DNA of 64,000 bases, taken from NCBI RefSeq assembly GCF_000311845.1, contig NZ_HE978574.1, positions 1,083,248 through 1,147,247 on the forward strand, written 5' to 3'. The notes under the pieces are model-generated. The model ran no database searches. It was not told where the DNA came from and saw only the letters and a program-made list of their open reading frames with translations. Positions 1,004-14,421 of the stretch are shown here, piece by piece. The DNA is from Enorma massiliensis phI. GTDB taxonomy: Bacteria; Actinomycetota; Coriobacteriia; Coriobacteriales; Coriobacteriaceae. Both the position numbers and the translations under genes were made by a program. The first letter of the stretch is position 1, and each line of letters starts with the position of its first letter.

Positions 1004-1121
1004 GCTTGCAGCGTTTCGGAGGGCGGCCTGGCACGCCAATCCGCGTCGACGCGTGCTAGTATGGTGGAGCGGCTGAGCACCGAACACGAACCACTGATGC
1101 CGTTGAGCGATGGAGGCTTCC

Positions 1122-2207
1122 ATGGCTAATCTCGAAGCGATGCGCACCTTTCAGAGGCATTGGACGAGCTACTGCGCTGAAGAGCGCACCCTCGCCCGAT
1201 TGTGCACGCAGCTCCCCCTCGATATCTCGGGCCTGGGCGCAAGGGAACGTCGGCTCCCGCCGTTCGCGTTTTCCACCGCCGCCGTCTACGATCGTCGTGC
1301 GCTCGCTGGGGCGCTCGGGCCGGACGGCGCGCATCTCGGCTATCGCGTCGATGAGGGCATCCAATGGAACTGGTGGCTCGCCTATGACGCTTGGCGCGCC
1401 GTCATCGACGAGCGGTCGTTGCTCGACGAGCGCGCCGCATGCATCGCCGAGCTCGCAGCCGTCGCGGCCGATACGCAGCGGGCGCTGGATGGGGACGAGG
1501 AACTTGCGCGCGACCGCTCGACCTTAAGGGACTATGCTGCCGCCGACGCCGAGGAGCGCTCAGAGCTCGCCCGCATGAACGAGCAGCGCAAGAAGTTCGT
1601 GGAACCCTACGAGCAGGATGAGGCGCGCCGGGCGCCATGGATCGCGCACCCCTGGAGGCGCTTGAAGCTCTGGTTTTTCAAGAGCTTTCGGATGAGGGAC
1701 GAGCTGGACAAGATCGATCAGAAGATCGCCGACATCCAAGCTAAGCTCGACGTGCGGGAACGCAAGATCGGTGAGCTTGGGGATGCGGTAGCCGCGCGCA
1801 CGGCATTGCTTGAAGAGCCCTTCGCGCCGCAGCGCAAGCGGTCGCTCGAAGCGATTCTGTCGACCGAGCGCGAACTGCTTTCGCTCCTCGATCACGATCT
1901 CGCTGCGCGGGACGAGACCTATGAGCAGGGGTCCGTGCTCGCAGAATCGTTCGAGGACGGCCTCGCTCATGCGAACGAGCGCGAATGGGCGCTGCTGGGG
2001 CGCTGGATGACGGAGTATGGCGCGCTCCTGCCCGAAGAGATCGTTCACGCGCGGAACATGGTGGAAAGCGAGCTCGTATGGCTCGAGGGCTACGCGCCCT
2101 ACGGGAAGCGGTACTGGCCGCTTACCGATCGAGTGGTCGAGGCCATGGAGGAGGGGCGCGCCGATTCGAGCGACCTTGCGCTCAAGCTCGTGCAGGGCTC
2201 TTCTTGA
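1122..2207 (+). CDS. Hypothetical coiled-coil protein
   Basis: Not recognised as a known family. The product is about 361 residues, soluble-looking, with no signal peptide and no clear membrane segment. It is very rich in Glu, Arg, Ala and Leu. Residues about 95-270 have the heptad-like charge pattern of a long coiled coil, interrupted near residue 180 by a Trp/Lys-rich stretch (WIAHPWRRLKLWFFKSF) that could be an amphipathic membrane-contacting helix. An in-frame ATG lies 12 nt upstream at 1110, but GGAGG just inside that codon is correctly spaced for the ATG at 1122, so 1122 is preferred. It stands alone between valS and fhs. Function unknown; a structural or membrane-associated scaffold role is only a guess. 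Confidence 0.7.
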   Translation: MANLEAMRTFQRHWTSYCAEERTLARLCTQLPLDISGLGARERRLPPFAFSTAAVYDRRALAGALGPDGAHLGYRVDEGIQWNWWLAYDAWRAVIDERSLLDERAACIAELAAVAADTQRALDGDEELARDRSTLRDYAAADAEERSELARMNEQRKKFVEPYEQDEARRAPWIAHPWRRLKLWFFKSFRMRDELDKIDQKIADIQAKLDVRERKIGELGDAVAARTALLEEPFAPQRKRSLEAILSTERELLSLLDHDLAARDETYEQGSVLAESFEDGLAHANEREWALLGRWMTEYGALLPEEIVHARNMVESELVWLEGYAPYGKRYWPLTDRVVEAMEEGRADSSDLALKLVQGSS

Positions 2208-2303
2208 CCGTTTGCGTAGTTCTGCTCTCTCGCGGGGCCTGAATCCCATACACTAGATGGGTGCTCCATTCGGGGCACGACAGGCTTGTTGAGAGGGGAC
2301 AGC

Positions 2304-3977
2304 ATGGCAGAGTACAAGACCGATATCGAGATTGCCCAGGAAGCCGAGATGTGGCCCATCACGCGGGTCGCCGAGGCGGTCGGCCTCACTGACGAGCAGC
2401 TCGAGCATTATGGTACGTACAAGGCGAAGGTCGATATCCACGCTCTGCGCGACCTGCCCCGTAAGGCCAAGCTCGTGCTTGTGACGGCAATCAACCCCAC
2501 GCCGGCGGGCGAGGGCAAGACCACGACCTCCGTTGGTTTGGCGGACGCCCTCACGCGATTGGGCAAGAAGGCGGTGCTGGCGTTGCGCGAGCCCTCGCTC
2601 GGGCCGGTCTTCGGCATCAAGGGCGGTGCGGCTGGCGGCGGCTATGCCCAGGTGGTTCCCATGGAGGATATCAACCTGCATTTCACGGGCGACTTCCATG
2701 CCATCGGTGCTGCCAACAACCTTCTTGCCGCCATGCTCGACAACCATATCCAGCAGGGTAACGCCCTTGGCATCGATCCAAAGCAGATCGTGTGGAAGCG
2801 CGCGGTCGATATGAACGATCGCCAGCTGCGCCACATCGTGGACGGTCTTGGCGGAAAGGCGCAGGGTGTTCCCCGTGAGGACGGCTTCGACATCACCGTG
2901 GCCTCTGAGGTTATGGCAGCGTTCTGCCTCGCGAGCGGCCTTATGGACCTGAAGGAGCGCCTGGGCCGCATGGTCGTGGCCTACACCTACGGCGGCGAGC
3001 CCGTCACGGCCTCCGACCTGCATGCCGAGGGCGCCATGGCGGCGCTCCTCAAGGACGCCATCAAGCCCAACCTCGTGCAAACGCTCGAGCATACGCCGGC
3101 GTTCGTGCACGGAGGCCCCTTCGCGAACATCGCGCATGGATGCAACTCGGTCCAGGCGACCGAGACCGCGCTGAAGCTGGGCGATTACGTGGTCACCGAG
3201 GCAGGCTTCGGTGCCGACCTGGGTGCCGAGAAGTTCCTCGACATCAAGTGCCGCATGGCGGGCCTCGACCCCGATGCGGTGGTGATCGTGGCCACGGTGC
3301 GCGCGCTCAAGTACAACGGAGGCGTGCCCAAGGCTGAGCTGACGAGCGAGAATCTCGAGGCGCTCGAGGCGGGCATCCCCAACCTGCTCCGCCACGTCTC
3401 GAACATCCGCGACGTCTACGGTCTGCCCTGCGTGGTCGCCATCAACGCATTCCCCACGGACACCCCGGCTGAGCTTGCCCTGGTGGAGCGCAAGTGCCAG
3501 GAGCTCGGCGTGAACGTCGCCCTCTCCGAGGTTTGGGCGAAGGGCGGCGAGGGCGGCGAGGCGCTCGCCGAGGAGGTCATGCGTCTCTGCGAGGAGCCCC
3601 ACGAGTTCCGTTATTCGTACGAAACCGGCTCCTCGATCGAGGATGCCCTCGATGCCATCGCGACCAAGATCTACCATGCGGACGGCGTGGACTACACGCC
3701 TGCCGCCAAGCGCCAGCTTGCTCAGCTCAAGGCGAACGGGTTCGGTAACCTTCCTGTCTGCGTGGCGAAGACGCAATATTCCTTCACGGACGATCAGCAT
3801 AAGCTCGGCGCGCCCGAGGGCTTCCGCATCACGGTGCGCAACCTTCGCGTCTCGGCGGGTGCCGGTTTCGTGGTGGCGCTCACTGGTGACATCATGACGA
3901 TGCCCGGCCTGCCCAAGACGCCGGCTGCGGAGCGGATCGATGTCGATGAGAACGGCGTGATCACCGGTTTGTTCTAG
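2304..3977 (+). CDS. fhs: Formate--tetrahydrofolate ligase
   Basis: Joins formate to tetrahydrofolate using ATP, giving 10-formyl-THF for purine synthesis, formyl-Met-tRNA and acetogenic-type C1 metabolism. The protein is 557 residues, the usual length for the monofunctional bacterial enzyme. The nucleotide-binding loop [11 protein letters not shown] is at residues 65-75, followed by family signatures such as [14 protein letters not shown] and the C-terminal [16 protein letters not shown] 18 nt upstream is in frame, but the GAGAGGGG ribosome site fits the ATG. It heads a folate cluster with fchA and folD downstream. The gap of about 320 nt to fchA carries a long palindrome, so these may be separate transcripts. 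Confidence 0.97.
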
Positions 3978-3986
3978 TGCTTTTTC

Positions 3987-4078
3987 GGCCCGGAGGGTGT
4001 TTCCTTCGGGCGTAGTCCTCGGATTTCGACCGAGTCGAAATCCTGCGGGAAACGCCCTGCGGAAACACCCTCCGGGCC
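3987..4078. repeat. 92-nt nested palindrome between fhs and fchA
   Basis: Three nested inverted pairs share one axis. The outer 18-nt arms at 3987-4004 and 4061-4078 match exactly, a 6-nt inner pair lies at 4008-4013 and 4052-4057, and a 9-nt central pair lies at 4021-4029 and 4035-4043. A T-run (3981-3985) on the left side would follow the hairpin only on the minus strand, so it is not a simple terminator for fhs. It resembles a mobile palindromic (REP/MITE-like) element. Confidence 0.6.
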
Positions 4079-8257: not shown

Positions 8258-8383
8258 CGCCCCCTCGACATGCGTTGCCGCCCCGGTGCCATTTGTACAA
8301 TGGAAGGCGTACATGACGCGATGACGGCACCATGCCGCTCGCAGACCGTTGTTTTGCAATGGGCGGCATTGTGGGGTGCTGGT

Positions 8384-9298
8384 GTGAATATTCAACAACT
8401 TCGATATTTCTGCTCCGTTATGAACGCCGGCAGCTTTTCGGGGGCTGCTCGCGAGGCGAACGTGACGGTCCAAGCGGTCTCCAAGGCGATCGGTGAGCTG
8501 GAGGCCGAGCTGGGGGAGCCTCTGTTCGTGCGACGAAGCAAGGGTGCCGTTCCCACCGCTTTCGGCCTTGAGCTGAGCCGGTACGCCCAGCAGGCCCTCG
8601 AGGCCTTCGATAAGGTCGGCGATATGTTCGAGGCGCGCCGGACGGATGCCGTGAAGGCGGGCGATACCTTTCGCGTCTTGCTCGCAGTGCCGTTCTTCAG
8701 CAACCATCGTATCGTCTGCGCGGGGTTGGAGCGCTTCCTTTCCAAGCAGCTGGGTACGAAGGTGAGCTTTGGGCTTTGCATGGGCTACGAGGCAGTCCCA
8801 CAGCTGCTTTCCGGCGACCTTGACGCGCTGATTACCATCGGGGAGTATTCCAATCCGCTCTGCGACAGCGTTCGTGTGGGCACGCTGCCGGTAGGCGTCT
8901 TCCTCTCGAGCAAGCACCCGCTCCGCAAGAAAAAGCTCGTCACCATGAGCGACCTCGCGCCGTATCCCGTCTGCCATGCCGAAGGTCTCGACGATTTCAA
9001 CGAGACGATCTTGAACCTGTACCTTCGCTGCGGGCTTGCGTCGAAGGTGGTCCCCATCCGCACGCAGGATGAGGTCAAGCATTTCGTGATGGAAGAGCAT
9101 GGCTACACCATGGGAGTGGGGATTCCCGCCTTCTCCATCTCTCCATCGTGGTCGATGCTGCGCTTCGTGCCCGAGGACGACATTCCCGTGTCGGTCTGCG
9201 CCGTGAGCGCAAAGGACCATAAATCCGAGCAGTACCTCGCCTTCGAGCACTTCATGCTCAAGGGCTTCCCGCGCGTGCTCTCGCTTCTTGGCGCATAG
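8384..9298 (+). CDS. LysR-family transcriptional regulator
   Basis: 304 residues from the GTG start. Residues 2-60 are the winged helix-turn-helix of LysR proteins (IQQLRYFCSVMNAGSFSGAA, with the recognition-helix segment TVQAVSKAIGELE). The rest resembles the type 2 periplasmic-binding effector domain. The frame is open for 114 nt upstream of this GTG, but the LysR fold starts exactly here. It lies about 125 nt after the cyclo-ligase and ends against a convergent gene pair. Its target is not visible; the upstream C1 cluster is the obvious candidate but no operator was recognised. Confidence 0.9.
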   Translation: MNIQQLRYFCSVMNAGSFSGAAREANVTVQAVSKAIGELEAELGEPLFVRRSKGAVPTAFGLELSRYAQQALEAFDKVGDMFEARRTDAVKAGDTFRVLLAVPFFSNHRIVCAGLERFLSKQLGTKVSFGLCMGYEAVPQLLSGDLDALITIGEYSNPLCDSVRVGTLPVGVFLSSKHPLRKKKLVTMSDLAPYPVCHAEGLDDFNETILNLYLRCGLASKVVPIRTQDEVKHFVMEEHGYTMGVGIPAFSISPSWSMLRFVPEDDIPVSVCAVSAKDHKSEQYLAFEHFMLKGFPRVLSLLGA

Positions 9299-9464: not shown

Positions 9465-12400
9465 CTAGGCTTCTGGGCGCGCGTCGGGGTCCTTGTCCTT
9501 CTTGGCCCGCTTCTCATCGTACTTGCCGATGGAGGCGTCTTGGCTCTCAACGAAGCTGTCGGCTCCCTCGAGCTCATCGGCCTCGCCCTCGCTCAGAGGC
9601 GAGCGGTCGTCTTCATCGTGCTCGAATTGGAGCTGGTAGGGTGCGATATCGTGCCGCGTGAGCAGAAGGCGCATCTCCCGCTTGAGGTTCCGCTCGAGTG
9701 CGGAGCGGTTCTTCTCCGAGCAGCGCGCGATCACGCGGATGGTCATCGTGCTCGTGGAGAGTGCGACGATGCCGCGGTAGAACGGGCCGTCCAAGATCAT
9801 GGGCTGGCGCTCGGCGATGCGCGGAAGCGCCTCTTTGAGCACGTTCTCGAGGTGCGGCAGGTCCTCGCCCACGGAGACCTCGACGTCGATGGTGGCGAAG
9901 GAATCGAGCTTGGTGCGGTTCACCACGTTCGAGATCGCGCTGTTCCTCAGCACGATGACGTTGTCGTTGCCGTCGTTGATCTTGGTGGTGCGGATGCCGA
10001 TCTCCATGACGGTTCCGGTGTTGGTACCCACGGAGATGGTGTCGCCCACGCGGAACTCGCCCTCGAAGATGATGAAGAGGCCCGAGAGCAGGTCGGTGAC
10101 GAGGTCCTTCGCACCGAAGCTGATGGCCAGGGTGAGGAGTCCCGCGCTTGCAAGAAGCGTGCCTGTGTCCACGCCCACCGTCGCCAAGCACCAATACAGC
10201 GTTCCCAGGATTGCGCCGTACTTGGTGAGGCTCACGAGCAGGCGGCATACGGTCTCGCCGCGCGCCGAGAGGGCATCGGAGAGCAGGTGCAGCACCTTCT
10301 GCACCACCCACGACAGGGTGAAGATCACGCATGCGGTCATAACGCTTGCCGTGAGCGCGAAGATGTTGAGGCCGCGTTCCCAGCCCCCGCCGAGGATGTA
10401 TCCGAAGACGGAGTTCGTCCCGAAGATCTGGTCCTTGAACAGTACCGAGAAGAAGACGGCGACCACGCCCACGCCAACGAAGAGGCGCAAGACATAGCCG
10501 AGCTTCTGCTCGGGTGTCATGTGGCTCCAATCGAGGGAGCGGTTGAGCCAACGGCTCGCGGCAGACTCCGTCCTCGTCCGACGACCCGAGGGCGTTTCGA
10601 TTTCGAAGACGCGGTCCGCGCTGGGGTCTTCCGTCATGGAGCGGAGAGGGGCGGGCATGTGCTCGGGCTCAAAGGCGATCAGGCAGAAGACGACGGCAAG
10701 GCAGGCGAGCGCGATGAGCCCGGTGGCGAGGGTGAGCGGGAGGCGTTGGGCCATGAGCTCGCCTTCGGGGCCCGCAACGTATACGAAGCAATCGGGCGTC
10801 TCGACTGAGGAGGCGTAGAACGTCTCGCCACCGATCGTGATGTAGTCGTCGTAGCCTCCGCGGATCTGGCTCTCCTTGAGCCCGACCTCAGTGGCCTGCT
10901 TGCCTTGAATCGAAGCGTCGGGATAGTAGGAGATGGTGCCATCGGCTTTGCTCACCGCGAACGCGAAGCCGCCGGAGCCCGCCTTCACGCCGTCGAGCAC
11001 GTGATCGATCTGCACGCTTCTGAGCAGCTCCTCGAGCCTTCCGGCATGAACCATGACCTGCACGAATCCGTTGGTGTAGCCCGCATCGTCGTAGGTTGCC
11101 ACGCCGATGTACTGAACGAGCTCCCCGGTCATCTCGTCTTCTGTGGGCTCCTGGACGTAGCTATCTACGCCCTGCAGGAGCTGCCAGAAGGCGAAGGACT
11201 GGTCGGTCTTGTCGGTCGAGAGCGAGAAGTGCTCATATGGAGCGTTCGAAACCATCATGGACCCGCTTCCATCGAACAGGTACACGCCAGACACCTGGAG
11301 CACGTCGGCAAGTTCCTGCATCTTGGGTTTCGTCGCGAGGGCGGGGTTCTCCTCGAGGATGTAGGCCGCCACGCGTGCCTTGGATAGGTAGCGCTCGTCA
11401 TACTGCACGGTAAGCTCGTCGGCGCGATCGTTCACGCGGTCGATGGTCTCGGCGATCGACGAAGCGCGCTCCTTGTTAACGACCGACTGCGTGGAGAGGG
11501 CGAAGAGCGTCTGCATGTAGAAGGAGACGGCGACGATGGCGATGAAGCCGACGAGCGTGAAGATCGCTGCGCGCTTGCCGACTTCGCGATTGTAGCGAAG
11601 GCGTCCAACGCGAACGAGGTGATCGTTCGCATGGCCGTCGCGTTCCTCCTGGCGCATGACGAAGATGCCGTAGAGCGTGACGGTCGCGATGACGGCAAAG
11701 AACACGAAGAGGATGACGGCTACGGTCACCATGCGCGATGCGGCCATGTCGCTTTCGGGCACGGCGCAAACATAGTAGGTGTCGCCGATGAGGCTCACGC
11801 GGCAGTAGAGTTCTTCTCCGTCCAAGGTGAGCTGCGCTACGGCGCCGTCCTCGAGCTTGGCTACATCGATTCCCGCGTCGAGCGCGTCTCGACCGACAAG
11901 GTCGGCGTCGGGATGGTATTCGATGAGGTAGGTTTGCGCCGAGAGCGCAAACACATAGCCGTTTTGCCCTACGGAGATGTTGCGGAGCACGCTTTCCGTG
12001 GAGCTCGTCTCGGCATCGAGGAGGCGCAGCTCCTCGGGGTTCTGCTCGATGACGACCATCGTGTCGGCGTCGAGGCACGCTGCGTAGTACCGGCACAGCC
12101 AGTCCTCGCCGGGAAGCTCGATTTCGACGGCGCGCGACGGCTCGCCCGTGGCAAGGCATTCGCGCAGATAGTTGAAGCGCGCATACGAGAAGTTCGCCTT
12201 CGTTTCGGCTGCCTTTGCCACGATGGTGCCGTCCGACTTGACGACGAGCACGTTATCGACGTCCAAGAGCTGGCGGTACTCGGCCATCTTGGCATCCGTT
12301 GCCTCGAACCCGGCGTCGTTTGCTGCCATGAAGGCGACGCTCATCGCCTTCGACTGATAGATGGCATCGAAGGTCTCCTTGTTCTGCGAGGCCTCCTCTT

Positions 12401-12584
12401 CTGCGCTGGCGAGGAGCTCCTTGAGCTCGCTTGCCTCTTCCTCCATCTCGGTGTCGTAGCTTGAGCGGGAGAGGCTCTCTTGCATGCCGGAGAGCAGGAC
12501 GCCCATGACGACCATGCTTACGGCTACGATCGCGAGAAGGAGCGCGATCTTCACATTCGTTTTGCGGAACAGCGTACGGGGCAT
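9465..12584 (-). CDS. Tandem sensor-domain (Cache-like) MscS mechanosensitive channel
   Basis: Very large inner-membrane channel, about 1039 residues. Numbering from an ATG at 12590: TM 15-35; extracellular sensor module 1 about 36-285; TM 287-312; TM about 341-360; sensor module 2 about 361-615; TM 617-640; a charged linker; two or three further TMs (698-718, 742-765, 785-806); the MscS pore helix from about 812 (GLLTLAISFGAKDLVTDLL); the beta domain (FRVGDTISVGTNTGTVMEIG); an alpha/beta C-terminal domain to about 985; and an acidic/basic tail. Each sensor module has an N-terminal helix, a VYLFDGSG-like or VLVVKSDG strand and a GYVFALS or GFAFAVS strand, the dCache pattern. The start at 12584 is preferred because GGAG abuts the first ATG. 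Translationally coupled to the upstream binding protein. Confidence 0.88.
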   Translation of the reverse strand: MPRTLFRKTNVKIALLLAIVAVSMVVMGVLLSGMQESLSRSSYDTEMEEEASELKELLASAEEEASQNKETFDAIYQSKAMSVAFMAANDAGFEATDAKMAEYRQLLDVDNVLVVKSDGTIVAKAAETKANFSYARFNYLRECLATGEPSRAVEIELPGEDWLCRYYAACLDADTMVVIEQNPEELRLLDAETSSTESVLRNISVGQNGYVFALSAQTYLIEYHPDADLVGRDALDAGIDVAKLEDGAVAQLTLDGEELYCRVSLIGDTYYVCAVPESDMAASRMVTVAVILFVFFAVIATVTLYGIFVMRQEERDGHANDHLVRVGRLRYNREVGKRAAIFTLVGFIAIVAVSFYMQTLFALSTQSVVNKERASSIAETIDRVNDRADELTVQYDERYLSKARVAAYILEENPALATKPKMQELADVLQVSGVYLFDGSGSMMVSNAPYEHFSLSTDKTDQSFAFWQLLQGVDSYVQEPTEDEMTGELVQYIGVATYDDAGYTNGFVQVMVHAGRLEELLRSVQIDHVLDGVKAGSGGFAFAVSKADGTISYYPDASIQGKQATEVGLKESQIRGGYDDYITIGGETFYASSVETPDCFVYVAGPEGELMAQRLPLTLATGLIALACLAVVFCLIAFEPEHMPAPLRSMTEDPSADRVFEIETPSGRRTRTESAASRWLNRSLDWSHMTPEQKLGYVLRLFVGVGVVAVFFSVLFKDQIFGTNSVFGYILGGGWERGLNIFALTASVMTACVIFTLSWVVQKVLHLLSDALSARGETVCRLLVSLTKYGAILGTLYWCLATVGVDTGTLLASAGLLTLAISFGAKDLVTDLLSGLFIIFEGEFRVGDTISVGTNTGTVMEIGIRTTKINDGNDNVIVLRNSAISNVVNRTKLDSFATIDVEVSVGEDLPHLENVLKEALPRIAERQPMILDGPFYRGIVALSTSTMTIRVIARCSEKNRSALERNLKREMRLLLTRHDIAPYQLQFEHDEDDRSPLSEGEADELEGADSFVESQDASIGKYDEKRAKKDKDPDARPEA

Positions 12585-12593
12585 CTTCATCTC

Positions 12594-13460
12594 CTAGTCC
12601 CACTTGTCTACGAGCGCGGCGATCGTGCCATCGTCGAGCATATCCTGCAGGGTGGACGACACCGAATCGCTCAGGTCCGAGCCCTTCTGCGTCGCGATAC
12701 CGTATGATTGCTCGGCGACCTCGAAACCTTCGATGATGGTGCGCTTGTCGTCCATATAGGTATGCGCGATAGCTCCGTCGAGCACCATGGCATCGACCGT
12801 TCCCACTTCGAGTGCGTCCGAGAGCTCTTCGTAACTCGGGAATTGCAGCAGGTGCCAGGTATCAAAGGAGACATCGGAGTTGTCGTCGTTCGCCTGTTCC
12901 ACCACGCCGGATGAGAATCCGATGTCGTAGAGCTTCTGGCTCAGGAGCGGTGCGGCGTTCGATCCAGACATGGTGCCGAAGGTGCGGCCGCGCATGTCAT
13001 CGATGGAGGCGATCATCGACGAGTTCTGGACGACGGCGATGACGGCATCCTCGTAATAAGCGGGGGAGAAGTCGAAGTTCTCAAGCCGGGTCTCGGCGAT
13101 GGAATAGCAGGCGGCTACAAGGTCGATGGTGCCCGCGAGAAGCATTTCTTTCCGGTCGTCGGGCGTGACGGTGACGAACTCCACATCGTCTATGCCCATG
13201 CGTTCTGCGAGATCGTTCACGATATCGATCTCAAGTCCGTAGTAGTTATCGGTCGTCTCGTTGAGATATCCGAAGCCGATGACGTCGGCCCTGACGCCGG
13301 CTCGAAGCGTGCCGTTTGCCGTGGATGTGCTGGCTGCGCGCGGGCTGCCGGATCCCGTGCTGCCCGATGCGGGAGCACCCTGGCCGGCGCATCCGCCCAG
13401 CGCGGCGATCGGAAGCGCGGAGAGCGCGAGGGCGCAAAGGGTTCTGCGCGATACGTTCAC
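12594..13460 (-). CDS. Substrate-binding lipoprotein, SBP family 3 (polar amino acid type)
   Basis: 288-residue exported lipoprotein. It has a twin-Arg-containing n-region (SRRT), a hydrophobic core and a lipobox LGGC with Cys24 as the acylated residue. A Ser/Gly linker to about residue 50 follows, then the two-lobe SBP_bac_3 fold (segments YYGLEIDIVNDLAERMG, LLAGTIDLVAACYSIAETR, DDMRGRTFGTMSGS, LEVGTVDAMVLDGAIA). Such proteins normally feed an amino-acid ABC importer, yet no permease or ATPase is adjacent. Instead only 3 nt separate its stop from the sensor-channel gene, with the channel's ribosome site overlapping the stop. It could therefore act as a ligand receptor for that channel, which is inference. 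The ligand is unknown. A 15-nt hairpin (13500-13514) lies in its 5' leader. Confidence 0.9.
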   Translation of the reverse strand: MNVSRRTLCALALSALPIAALGGCAGQGAPASGSTGSGSPRAASTSTANGTLRAGVRADVIGFGYLNETTDNYYGLEIDIVNDLAERMGIDDVEFVTVTPDDRKEMLLAGTIDLVAACYSIAETRLENFDFSPAYYEDAVIAVVQNSSMIASIDDMRGRTFGTMSGSNAAPLLSQKLYDIGFSSGVVEQANDDNSDVSFDTWHLLQFPSYEELSDALEVGTVDAMVLDGAIAHTYMDDKRTIIEGFEVAEQSYGIATQKGSDLSDSVSSTLQDMLDDGTIAALVDKWD

Positions 13461-13707
13461 GTCTCACCTCGTTATGGTCGAAGTTCCCTGGATGGTCTTG
13501 CCGGGTATCCCGGCACACATGCCCTCACTATACGTGAGCTCGCGCGTGGCTCGTATGCACCGCGCATGGTTCAACTTCAAATTGAAGTCCCTGGTTTTCG
13601 TTGCGGTCAAACGAGGCTTCCTTTAGATTGTCCTGGTTTGCCGCGGATGGATCCGCGGCCGCGCCCGGACTCGCTGGGGGTTCGGGGCGAGGGAATAGGA
13701 GGAAGCA

Positions 13708-14421
13708 TTGGATTCCATCAAGAAGTACGTTGCCGAAGCAATCGGTACCTTCACGCTCACGTTGTTCGGGTGCGGCAGCGCCGCCATTGCCGGCGCCACC
13801 CTGGGCACGCTCGGTATCGCGTTCGCTTTCGGTCTTTCGATCGTGGCCATGGCATTCGCCATCGGAAACGTGTCGGGCTGTCACATCAACCCTGCTGTGA
13901 CCTTCGGCCTCTATGCCGATAAGCGCATCTCCTTGAAGGACCTTTTCGGGTATTGGATTGGTCAGTTCGCTGGCGGCATCGTGGCCGCTTTCGTGCTCAT
14001 GCTGATTATCAATAGCTGCGACGCGCTCGGCGGCGTCGCCGCGACGGGGCTTGGCACCAACGGTTTCGGCGAGGCATCGACCACGGGCATCAGCATGGTC
14101 GGCGCGTTTGCGGTCGAGGTGATTCTTACCGCCGTTTTCGTGCTCACCATCTTGGGCGTTACGGCGAACGAGAAGACCTCTAGCTTCGCGGGCATCGTGA
14201 TCGGCCTCACCCTCACGTTCGTGCACATCATGGGTATCCCGCTGACGGGCACCTCGGTGAATCCGGCTCGCAGCTTCGGTCCCGCCCTTGCCATGGCGGT
14301 GCAGGGCAATACGCTGGCGCTCGAGCAGGTGTGGGTCTTCATCTTCGCTCCCCTCGTCGGCGCGGGCATCGCGGCGGCCATCTTCGCTCTGTTCAAGGGG
14401 TATTATTCGACGCAGGAGTAA
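13708..14421 (+). CDS. aqpZ: Aquaporin Z
   Basis: Six-TM water channel, 237 residues. Both NPA boxes are present (GCHINPAVTFG and TSVNPARSFG). Residues that make the narrow water-selective filter of E. coli AqpZ look conserved: the Phe in AFAFGLS, the His in FVHIMGIP, and the Arg after the second NPA. This favours AqpZ over a glycerol facilitator. The start is TTG, chosen because AGGAGGAA lies 3 nt upstream and the family N-terminus (a basic helix, then TM1) fits exactly. It is divergent from the binding-protein/channel pair with about 250 nt between, which suggests a shared osmotic context. Confidence 0.9.
   Translation: MDSIKKYVAEAIGTFTLTLFGCGSAAIAGATLGTLGIAFAFGLSIVAMAFAIGNVSGCHINPAVTFGLYADKRISLKDLFGYWIGQFAGGIVAAFVLMLIINSCDALGGVAATGLGTNGFGEASTTGISMVGAFAVEVILTAVFVLTILGVTANEKTSSFAGIVIGLTLTFVHIMGIPLTGTSVNPARSFGPALAMAVQGNTLALEQVWVFIFAPLVGAGIAAAIFALFKGYYSTQE

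Follow-up and report, generated by a model that had tools for sequence, protein, structure and literature searches.

In the LuxP-LuxQ system, a ligand is presented by its binding protein to an outer sensor of Cache-like type, with a histidine kinase as the output. In mycobacteria, the solute-binding protein (SBP) GlnH transmits its occupancy by aspartate or glutamate to GlnX, a membrane protein whose outer part comprises two sensor domains in tandem (PMC6069109), which sets a precedent for an SBP that informs a tandem-sensor membrane protein. Here, we describe a gene pair from Enorma massiliensis phI (contig NZ_HE978574.1), found at positions 9465..13460 of a 64-kb stretch of DNA that was analyzed as a whole and is referred to as the window. 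In this pair, a family-3 SBP lipoprotein directly precedes a large MscS-family channel with two predicted dCache modules. The pair is a conserved two-gene system, with a cross-phylum conservation far beyond chance, and its two products are very probably functional partners.

Like the window pair, GlnH-GlnX(-PknG) joins an aspartate/glutamate-type family-3 lipoprotein without its own permease to a two-sensor membrane protein in one operon (PMC6069109). However, GlnX has predicted four-helix bundles as sensors and the kinase PknG as output, whereas the window protein has predicted dCache modules and a channel pore; no PknG-type kinase was found among the neighboring genes of the pair. The parallel with LuxP-LuxQ lies in the combination of a binding protein with a Cache-like outer sensor. 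Among channels, Thermoanaerobacter MscS (3T9N/3UDC) and Escherichia coli MscS align with the pore helix and beta domain of the window protein, but the latter is extended at its N terminus by about 740 residues, which include two dCache modules and additional transmembrane (TM) helices. YbiO and MscK also combine an MscS pore with a large N-terminal part, and their extra parts are not known to be dCache. We know of no SBP in the known Thermoanaerobacter and E. coli MscS channels, nor of one linked to YbiO or MscK. PEB1a and other SBPs of amino-acid ATP-binding cassette (ABC) importers resemble the window SBP in fold and in their aspartate/glutamate-type pocket, but the window SBP lacks permease and ATPase neighbors and carries an insertion in lobe 2. 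Finally, the calcium-channel alpha2delta protein is a separate subunit of a eukaryotic voltage-gated channel (PMC9901441), whereas here both modules are fused to the pore protein.

The SBP gene (12594..13460, minus strand) encodes a lipoprotein of 288 residues, which starts with GTG and contains a lipobox (...ALGGC) with Cys24 at about 13389-13391. The channel gene (9465..12590, minus strand), defined by its open reading frame, Pfam matches and alignment, encodes 1041 residues, or 1039 residues from a second ATG. At the junction (12585..12598, minus strand; ACTAGGAGATGAAGATG), the TAG stop codon of the SBP shares bases with AGGAG, the ribosome site of the channel, and is followed after 3 nt by a first ATG (12590), with the second in-frame ATG (12584) lying 9 nt away. 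Because AGGAG extends from within the stop codon right up to the first ATG, the second is the likelier channel start. Most relatives also have a TAGGAGG-like junction that places the channel's ribosome site across the stop codon of the SBP, and the gap to the start is usually 8-19 nt. A scan for promoter and terminator consensus sequences gave nothing beyond chance level.

The two genes are inherited together. In the family of the window genome, the channel is found in 20 of 67 genomes, each time with the SBP orthologue immediately upstream; among the 47 genomes without the channel, the SBP occurs in a single one (G043), as a truncated copy. Decayed copies were also seen, with both genes broken in G054, the channel in pieces beside an intact SBP in G036, and the SBP remnant alone in G043. 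When 84,980 species genomes were scanned with conserved channel peptides, 57 loci were found, which belong to Collinsella, Enorma, Olsenella/Atopobiaceae, Eggerthella, Gordonibacter, Enteroscipio, Raoultibacter, Rubneribacter and Senegalimassilia (Coriobacteriia), to Lachnospiraceae and related Clostridia, and to one Bifidobacterium, B. panos. The SBP lies directly upstream of the channel in 54 of these loci, across Actinomycetota and Bacillota, and of the three unpaired loci one is at a contig end (L075) and the other two have a broken channel frame (L113, L115). Coriobacteriia-wide, 61 of 398 genomes contain a match to the sensor part, the few weakest being other dCache proteins, such as a histidine kinase in L175; in the Lachnospiraceae-type family, 39 of 397 genomes match, only about five of them within the close group. 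An earlier note on this DNA, made from the letters alone, had described a family-3 SBP lipoprotein and a channel of about 1039 residues, 3 nt apart and with the ribosome site over the stop, and had stated that its reading would fall if the two were not conserved together; open reading frames, Pfam matches and the junction sequence bear out the description, and the counts above show joint conservation.

The SBP matches SBP_bac_3 (Pfam, E 3.5e-25) as well as Lig_chan-Glu_bd, and its closest solved structure is PEB1a (2v25; profile E 8.5e-46). Both residues by which family-3 SBPs hold an amino acid are present, the arginine for the alpha-carboxylate (R125) and the aspartate for the alpha-amino group (D228). 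In Mycobacterium tuberculosis GlnH, the amino-acid backbone is held by Ser164, Arg169 and Asp250 and the aspartate side chain by Arg147, Trp232 and Thr162, and these contacts are reported to be conserved among binders of the same specificity (PMC6069109). By spacing and alignment, these six residues correspond to S120, R125, D228, R103, Y210 and position 118 of the window SBP. R103, R125, Y210 and D228 are kept in 51 of 52 channel-linked SBPs, and position 120 is Ser in all of these 51 except L234 (Thr). Position 118 varies (Cys, Thr or Ala), and position 57 is Arg in the window SBP and Lys in the transporter paralogues and L234. Judged by these residues, the pocket is of the type found in aspartate/glutamate binders such as PEB1a and mycobacterial GlnH, and because of this match to GlnH-type binders the ligand is likely to be aspartate or glutamate.

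Channel-linked SBPs also differ in the spacing of lobe 2. The distance between Gly166 and Tyr210 is 41-51 residues in 50 of the 52 (37 in L174 and 27 in L227), whereas transporter SBPs have 20-33 residues there, the closest paralogues 28 and PEB1a 26. By this comparison, channel-linked SBPs share an insertion of about 14-18 residues (about residues 183-205; about 12846..12914, minus strand) that is absent from their transporter relatives and is a candidate docking element. No SBP-dependent permease was found in the 64-kb window, all 22 BPD_transp_1 genes of the genome lying outside it, and none of SBP type was recognized near the loci of relatives, where matches were ABC exporter-type or ATPase proteins.

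Two TM-bracketed extracellular modules, D1 (about residues 37-285; 11736..12482, minus strand) and D2 (about residues 366-612; 10755..11495, minus strand), precede the pore. D2 matches dCache_1 in Pfam (E 4.6e-11), its 43.1 bits being slightly below the curated cut-off of 45 bits, while the match of D1 is too weak in the window protein and appears in 18 of 28 orthologues (best E 4.7e-8). AlphaFold2 models reached a predicted local distance difference test (pLDDT) score of 78 for residues 1-735 with 17 orthologues and of 90.4 for D1 with 28 orthologues. When the predicted D1 fold was compared with the PDB, all matches were dCache (VIA Z 14.2), among them PscC (Foldseek E 8.6e-11), PctA, Mlp24 and a Roseburia uracil dCache receptor; in a viral structure library, the matches were just scattered Cache or histidine-kinase proteins. 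By the same two programs, the predicted D2 fold matches the class of Mlp37, Mlp24, PctA and DctB (Foldseek E 3.7e-10 to Mlp37/PctA class). D1 and D2 share a homology that extends to their flanking TM helices (hhalign 99.4%, E 8.6e-22, 23% identity), and the N-terminal part is thus a duplicated TM-dCache-TM unit. Predicted fold, Pfam and internal homology together identify both outer regions as dCache modules, in agreement with the two tandem Cache-like modules that the earlier note had proposed. D1 was also considered as an SBP-specific docking domain, as suggested by identity to the window protein, and this was not clearly supported after matching for pore divergence.

The pore helices and beta domain (about residues 740-895; 9906..10373, minus strand) were placed by PF21088 (residues 788-828, E 4.3e-7), PF00924 (residues 829-893, E 8.1e-15) and the alignment to Thermoanaerobacter MscS (3udc/3t9n), which extends from about residue 800 on (E 2.4e-30) and includes the stretch LLASAGLLTLAISFGAKDLVTDLLSGLFIIFEGEF. 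On these matches, with the beta domain and the pore-lining helix, the channel belongs to the MscS superfamily. The rest of the genome contains one other MscS gene and no further protein above the dCache_1 threshold.

We propose that SBP and channel together would make up an osmotic release valve, a single device in which extracellular acidic amino acids would tune the opening. The membrane-tethered lipoprotein would close outside the cell on L-aspartate or L-glutamate, the ligand-closed SBP would dock on the outer dCache modules, probably via the extra lobe-2 element, and the helices that bracket these modules would then move and shift the tension threshold of the MscS pore. A nearby aquaporin would move water and the channel would vent solute, so that the unit would belong to turgor control. 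Direct docking of the SBP on the channel is somewhat favored, and an effect of the SBP or its ligand on gating is an evenly balanced proposition. For the reading of the channel as an MscS-family osmotic valve with a threshold tuned by outside aspartate or glutamate through the lipoprotein and the dCache modules, we likewise see an even chance. A little below that we place an aspartate/glutamate-controlled MscS-family channel in which the lipoprotein, with its glutamate-receptor fold, would dock on the tandem dCache modules and thereby open or close the pore, the aquaporin being a third partner. As to direction, we lean weakly towards bound glutamate or aspartate closing or desensitizing the channel, as feedback on the solute that the channel itself releases; MscCG, an MscS-type channel, can release glutamate (PMC7835871), which makes such feedback by released glutamate plausible.

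Direct ligand binding is common among dCache modules, and those of the channel might bind small ligands of their own that gate or tune the pore, with the co-expressed SBP acting elsewhere in the same osmotic or nutrient response. The polar residues R138, N140, R167, Y168, Y169 and D174 of D1 (window numbering) are invariant across phyla, which is compatible with a ligand site of its own, and orphan channels retain dCache-like regions without an SBP. Amino-acid-sensing dCache_1AA domains carry an R-x-W-Y motif (PMC10104139); in D1 of the 28 orthologues such a stretch was not seen, D1 not having been aligned residue by residue to PctA. However, when D2 is aligned to Mlp37, the RPWY stretch that provides the carboxylate arginine and the aromatic signature, as in PctA, is not conserved. 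The coupling of the two genes over the stop codon and their near-perfect co-inheritance also speak against independent sensors in a shared operon, which we consider unlikely.

Still less likely is that the SBP is an ordinary scavenger, which would recapture aspartate or glutamate leaking from the channel and feed it to the permease of a paralogous ABC operon without contacting the channel. MscS-type channels can release glutamate, as MscCG does (PMC7835871), the pocket of the SBP is of the same class as that of the transporter SBP, and a matching operon, an ordinary amino-acid ABC operon, exists at C1:160-163 kb, where an ABC ATPase-like frame precedes the genome's closest paralogue of the SBP (40%) and two permeases come after it. 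Yet the paralogue is present in nearly all genomes of the family, whereas an intact channel-type SBP occurs only in channel-bearing ones; channel-linked SBPs split from all other sampled SBPs in the tree (branch support 91) and carry their own insertion, and the two dCache modules would be left unexplained. A purely ligand-gated bacterial glutamate/aspartate receptor channel on an MscS-family pore, as might be suggested by the large ligand-sensing ectodomain and by an aspartate/glutamate-type SBP with the ionotropic glutamate receptor fold (Lig_chan-Glu_bd match), is improbable, since the alignment of the pore close to MscS and the linked aquaporin point to osmotic use.

Several observations weigh against the osmotic valve tuned through the SBP. 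Tandem-sensor MscS channels that lack an adjacent SBP occur among more distant relatives, both in Coriobacteriia (L170-L173) and in Lachnospiraceae-type genomes (L223-L225, L228-L233, L238), which indicates that the channel core needs no SBP and that the SBP is a feature of a subfamily. The tree requires several gains or losses of the pairing. In L227, a tandem-sensor channel stands beside an SBP-like protein without pocket and insertion (382-1155 and 1110-4076), and in L079 an intact channel accompanies an SBP (1987-2937) that is interrupted by an in-frame stop, the reverse of G036. With pore divergence matched, paired channels show no clearly stronger constraint on D1 than on D2, so that conservation singles out no docking domain. 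Finally, the dCache pockets may bind ligands of their own, and the role of the SBP would then be minor. Several of the SBP-less channels have a strongly diverged first sensor region, which may respond to something else, and the SBP-like protein of L227 may be a ligand-free partner.

The component families are all known. A search of the open-access literature (subscription papers were outside its scope) found no description of an SBP, tandem dCache modules and an MscS channel in combination. Of the view in the earlier note that these form one combination, the conserved pair stands, and the distant channels without SBP qualify it; the absence of an ABC permease or ATPase with the SBP, which the note had also stated, holds throughout the 64 kb and for what was recognized near relatives, the operon of the paralogue lying elsewhere in the genome. 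The aspartate/glutamate-type pocket, the lobe-2 insertion and the neighboring aquaporin are additions to that note. If the proposal is true, bacterial binding proteins would control an ion channel, beyond transporters, kinases and chemoreceptors, and an SBP-dependent ion channel would exist in two phyla of gut bacteria, linking the control of turgor to the sensing of amino acids in Coriobacteriia and Lachnospiraceae that are common in the gut. It would provide a tractable model of how a Cache or SBP ligand is coupled to a mechanosensitive gate and, as a channel with tandem dCache modules, a prokaryotic counterpart of alpha2delta, and the use of the extra domains in large MscS-family channels, an old question, would become directly testable.

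Divergent from the SBP gene lies an AqpZ-like aquaporin gene of the MIP family (13708..14421, plus strand; PF00230, E 2.4e-48). Its filter residues, read from the alignment at what we take to be the AqpZ positions, are F, H, T and R, presumably those of a water channel. Besides the window, 17 of the 57 loci have a MIP gene adjacent to or near the pair, in varying arrangements: divergent upstream (window, Enorma and Olsenella types), co-directional upstream (Lachnospiraceae; L174, L235), co-directional downstream (L117, L237), or nearby in Bifidobacterium. This proximity, kept through rearrangement, supports a role in turgor. In nine of 12 genomes checked, a sample picked for an adjacent MIP gene, the gene adjoining the pair is the sole MIP gene, as it is in the window genome. 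A 15-bp palindrome (ACTTCAATTTGAAGT; within 13570-13590) in the intergenic region between aquaporin and SBP was considered as a conserved operator and rejected, being absent from the upstream regions of relatives.

On the other side, a LysR-type regulator gene (8384..9298, plus strand; PF00126/PF03466) is convergent with the channel, its GTG start being deduced from orthologues in a frame that opens at 8270. It occupies the same position in about a dozen Collinsella-type relatives and is a possible regulator of the pair. Further neighbors in the window encode a 5-formyltetrahydrofolate (5-FTHF) cyclo-ligase and a formate/nitrite transporter. ABC genes downstream of some loci were considered as a hidden permease and rejected, the one tested being an ABC exporter and another an FHA-ABC ATPase. 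An ABC protein 3' of the channel recurs in many Eggerthellaceae/Olsenella loci (L071, L073, L078, L080-L082, L086, L087, L115); that of L071 (10079-11959) is the exporter tested, and the recurrent protein is probably unrelated to the pair.

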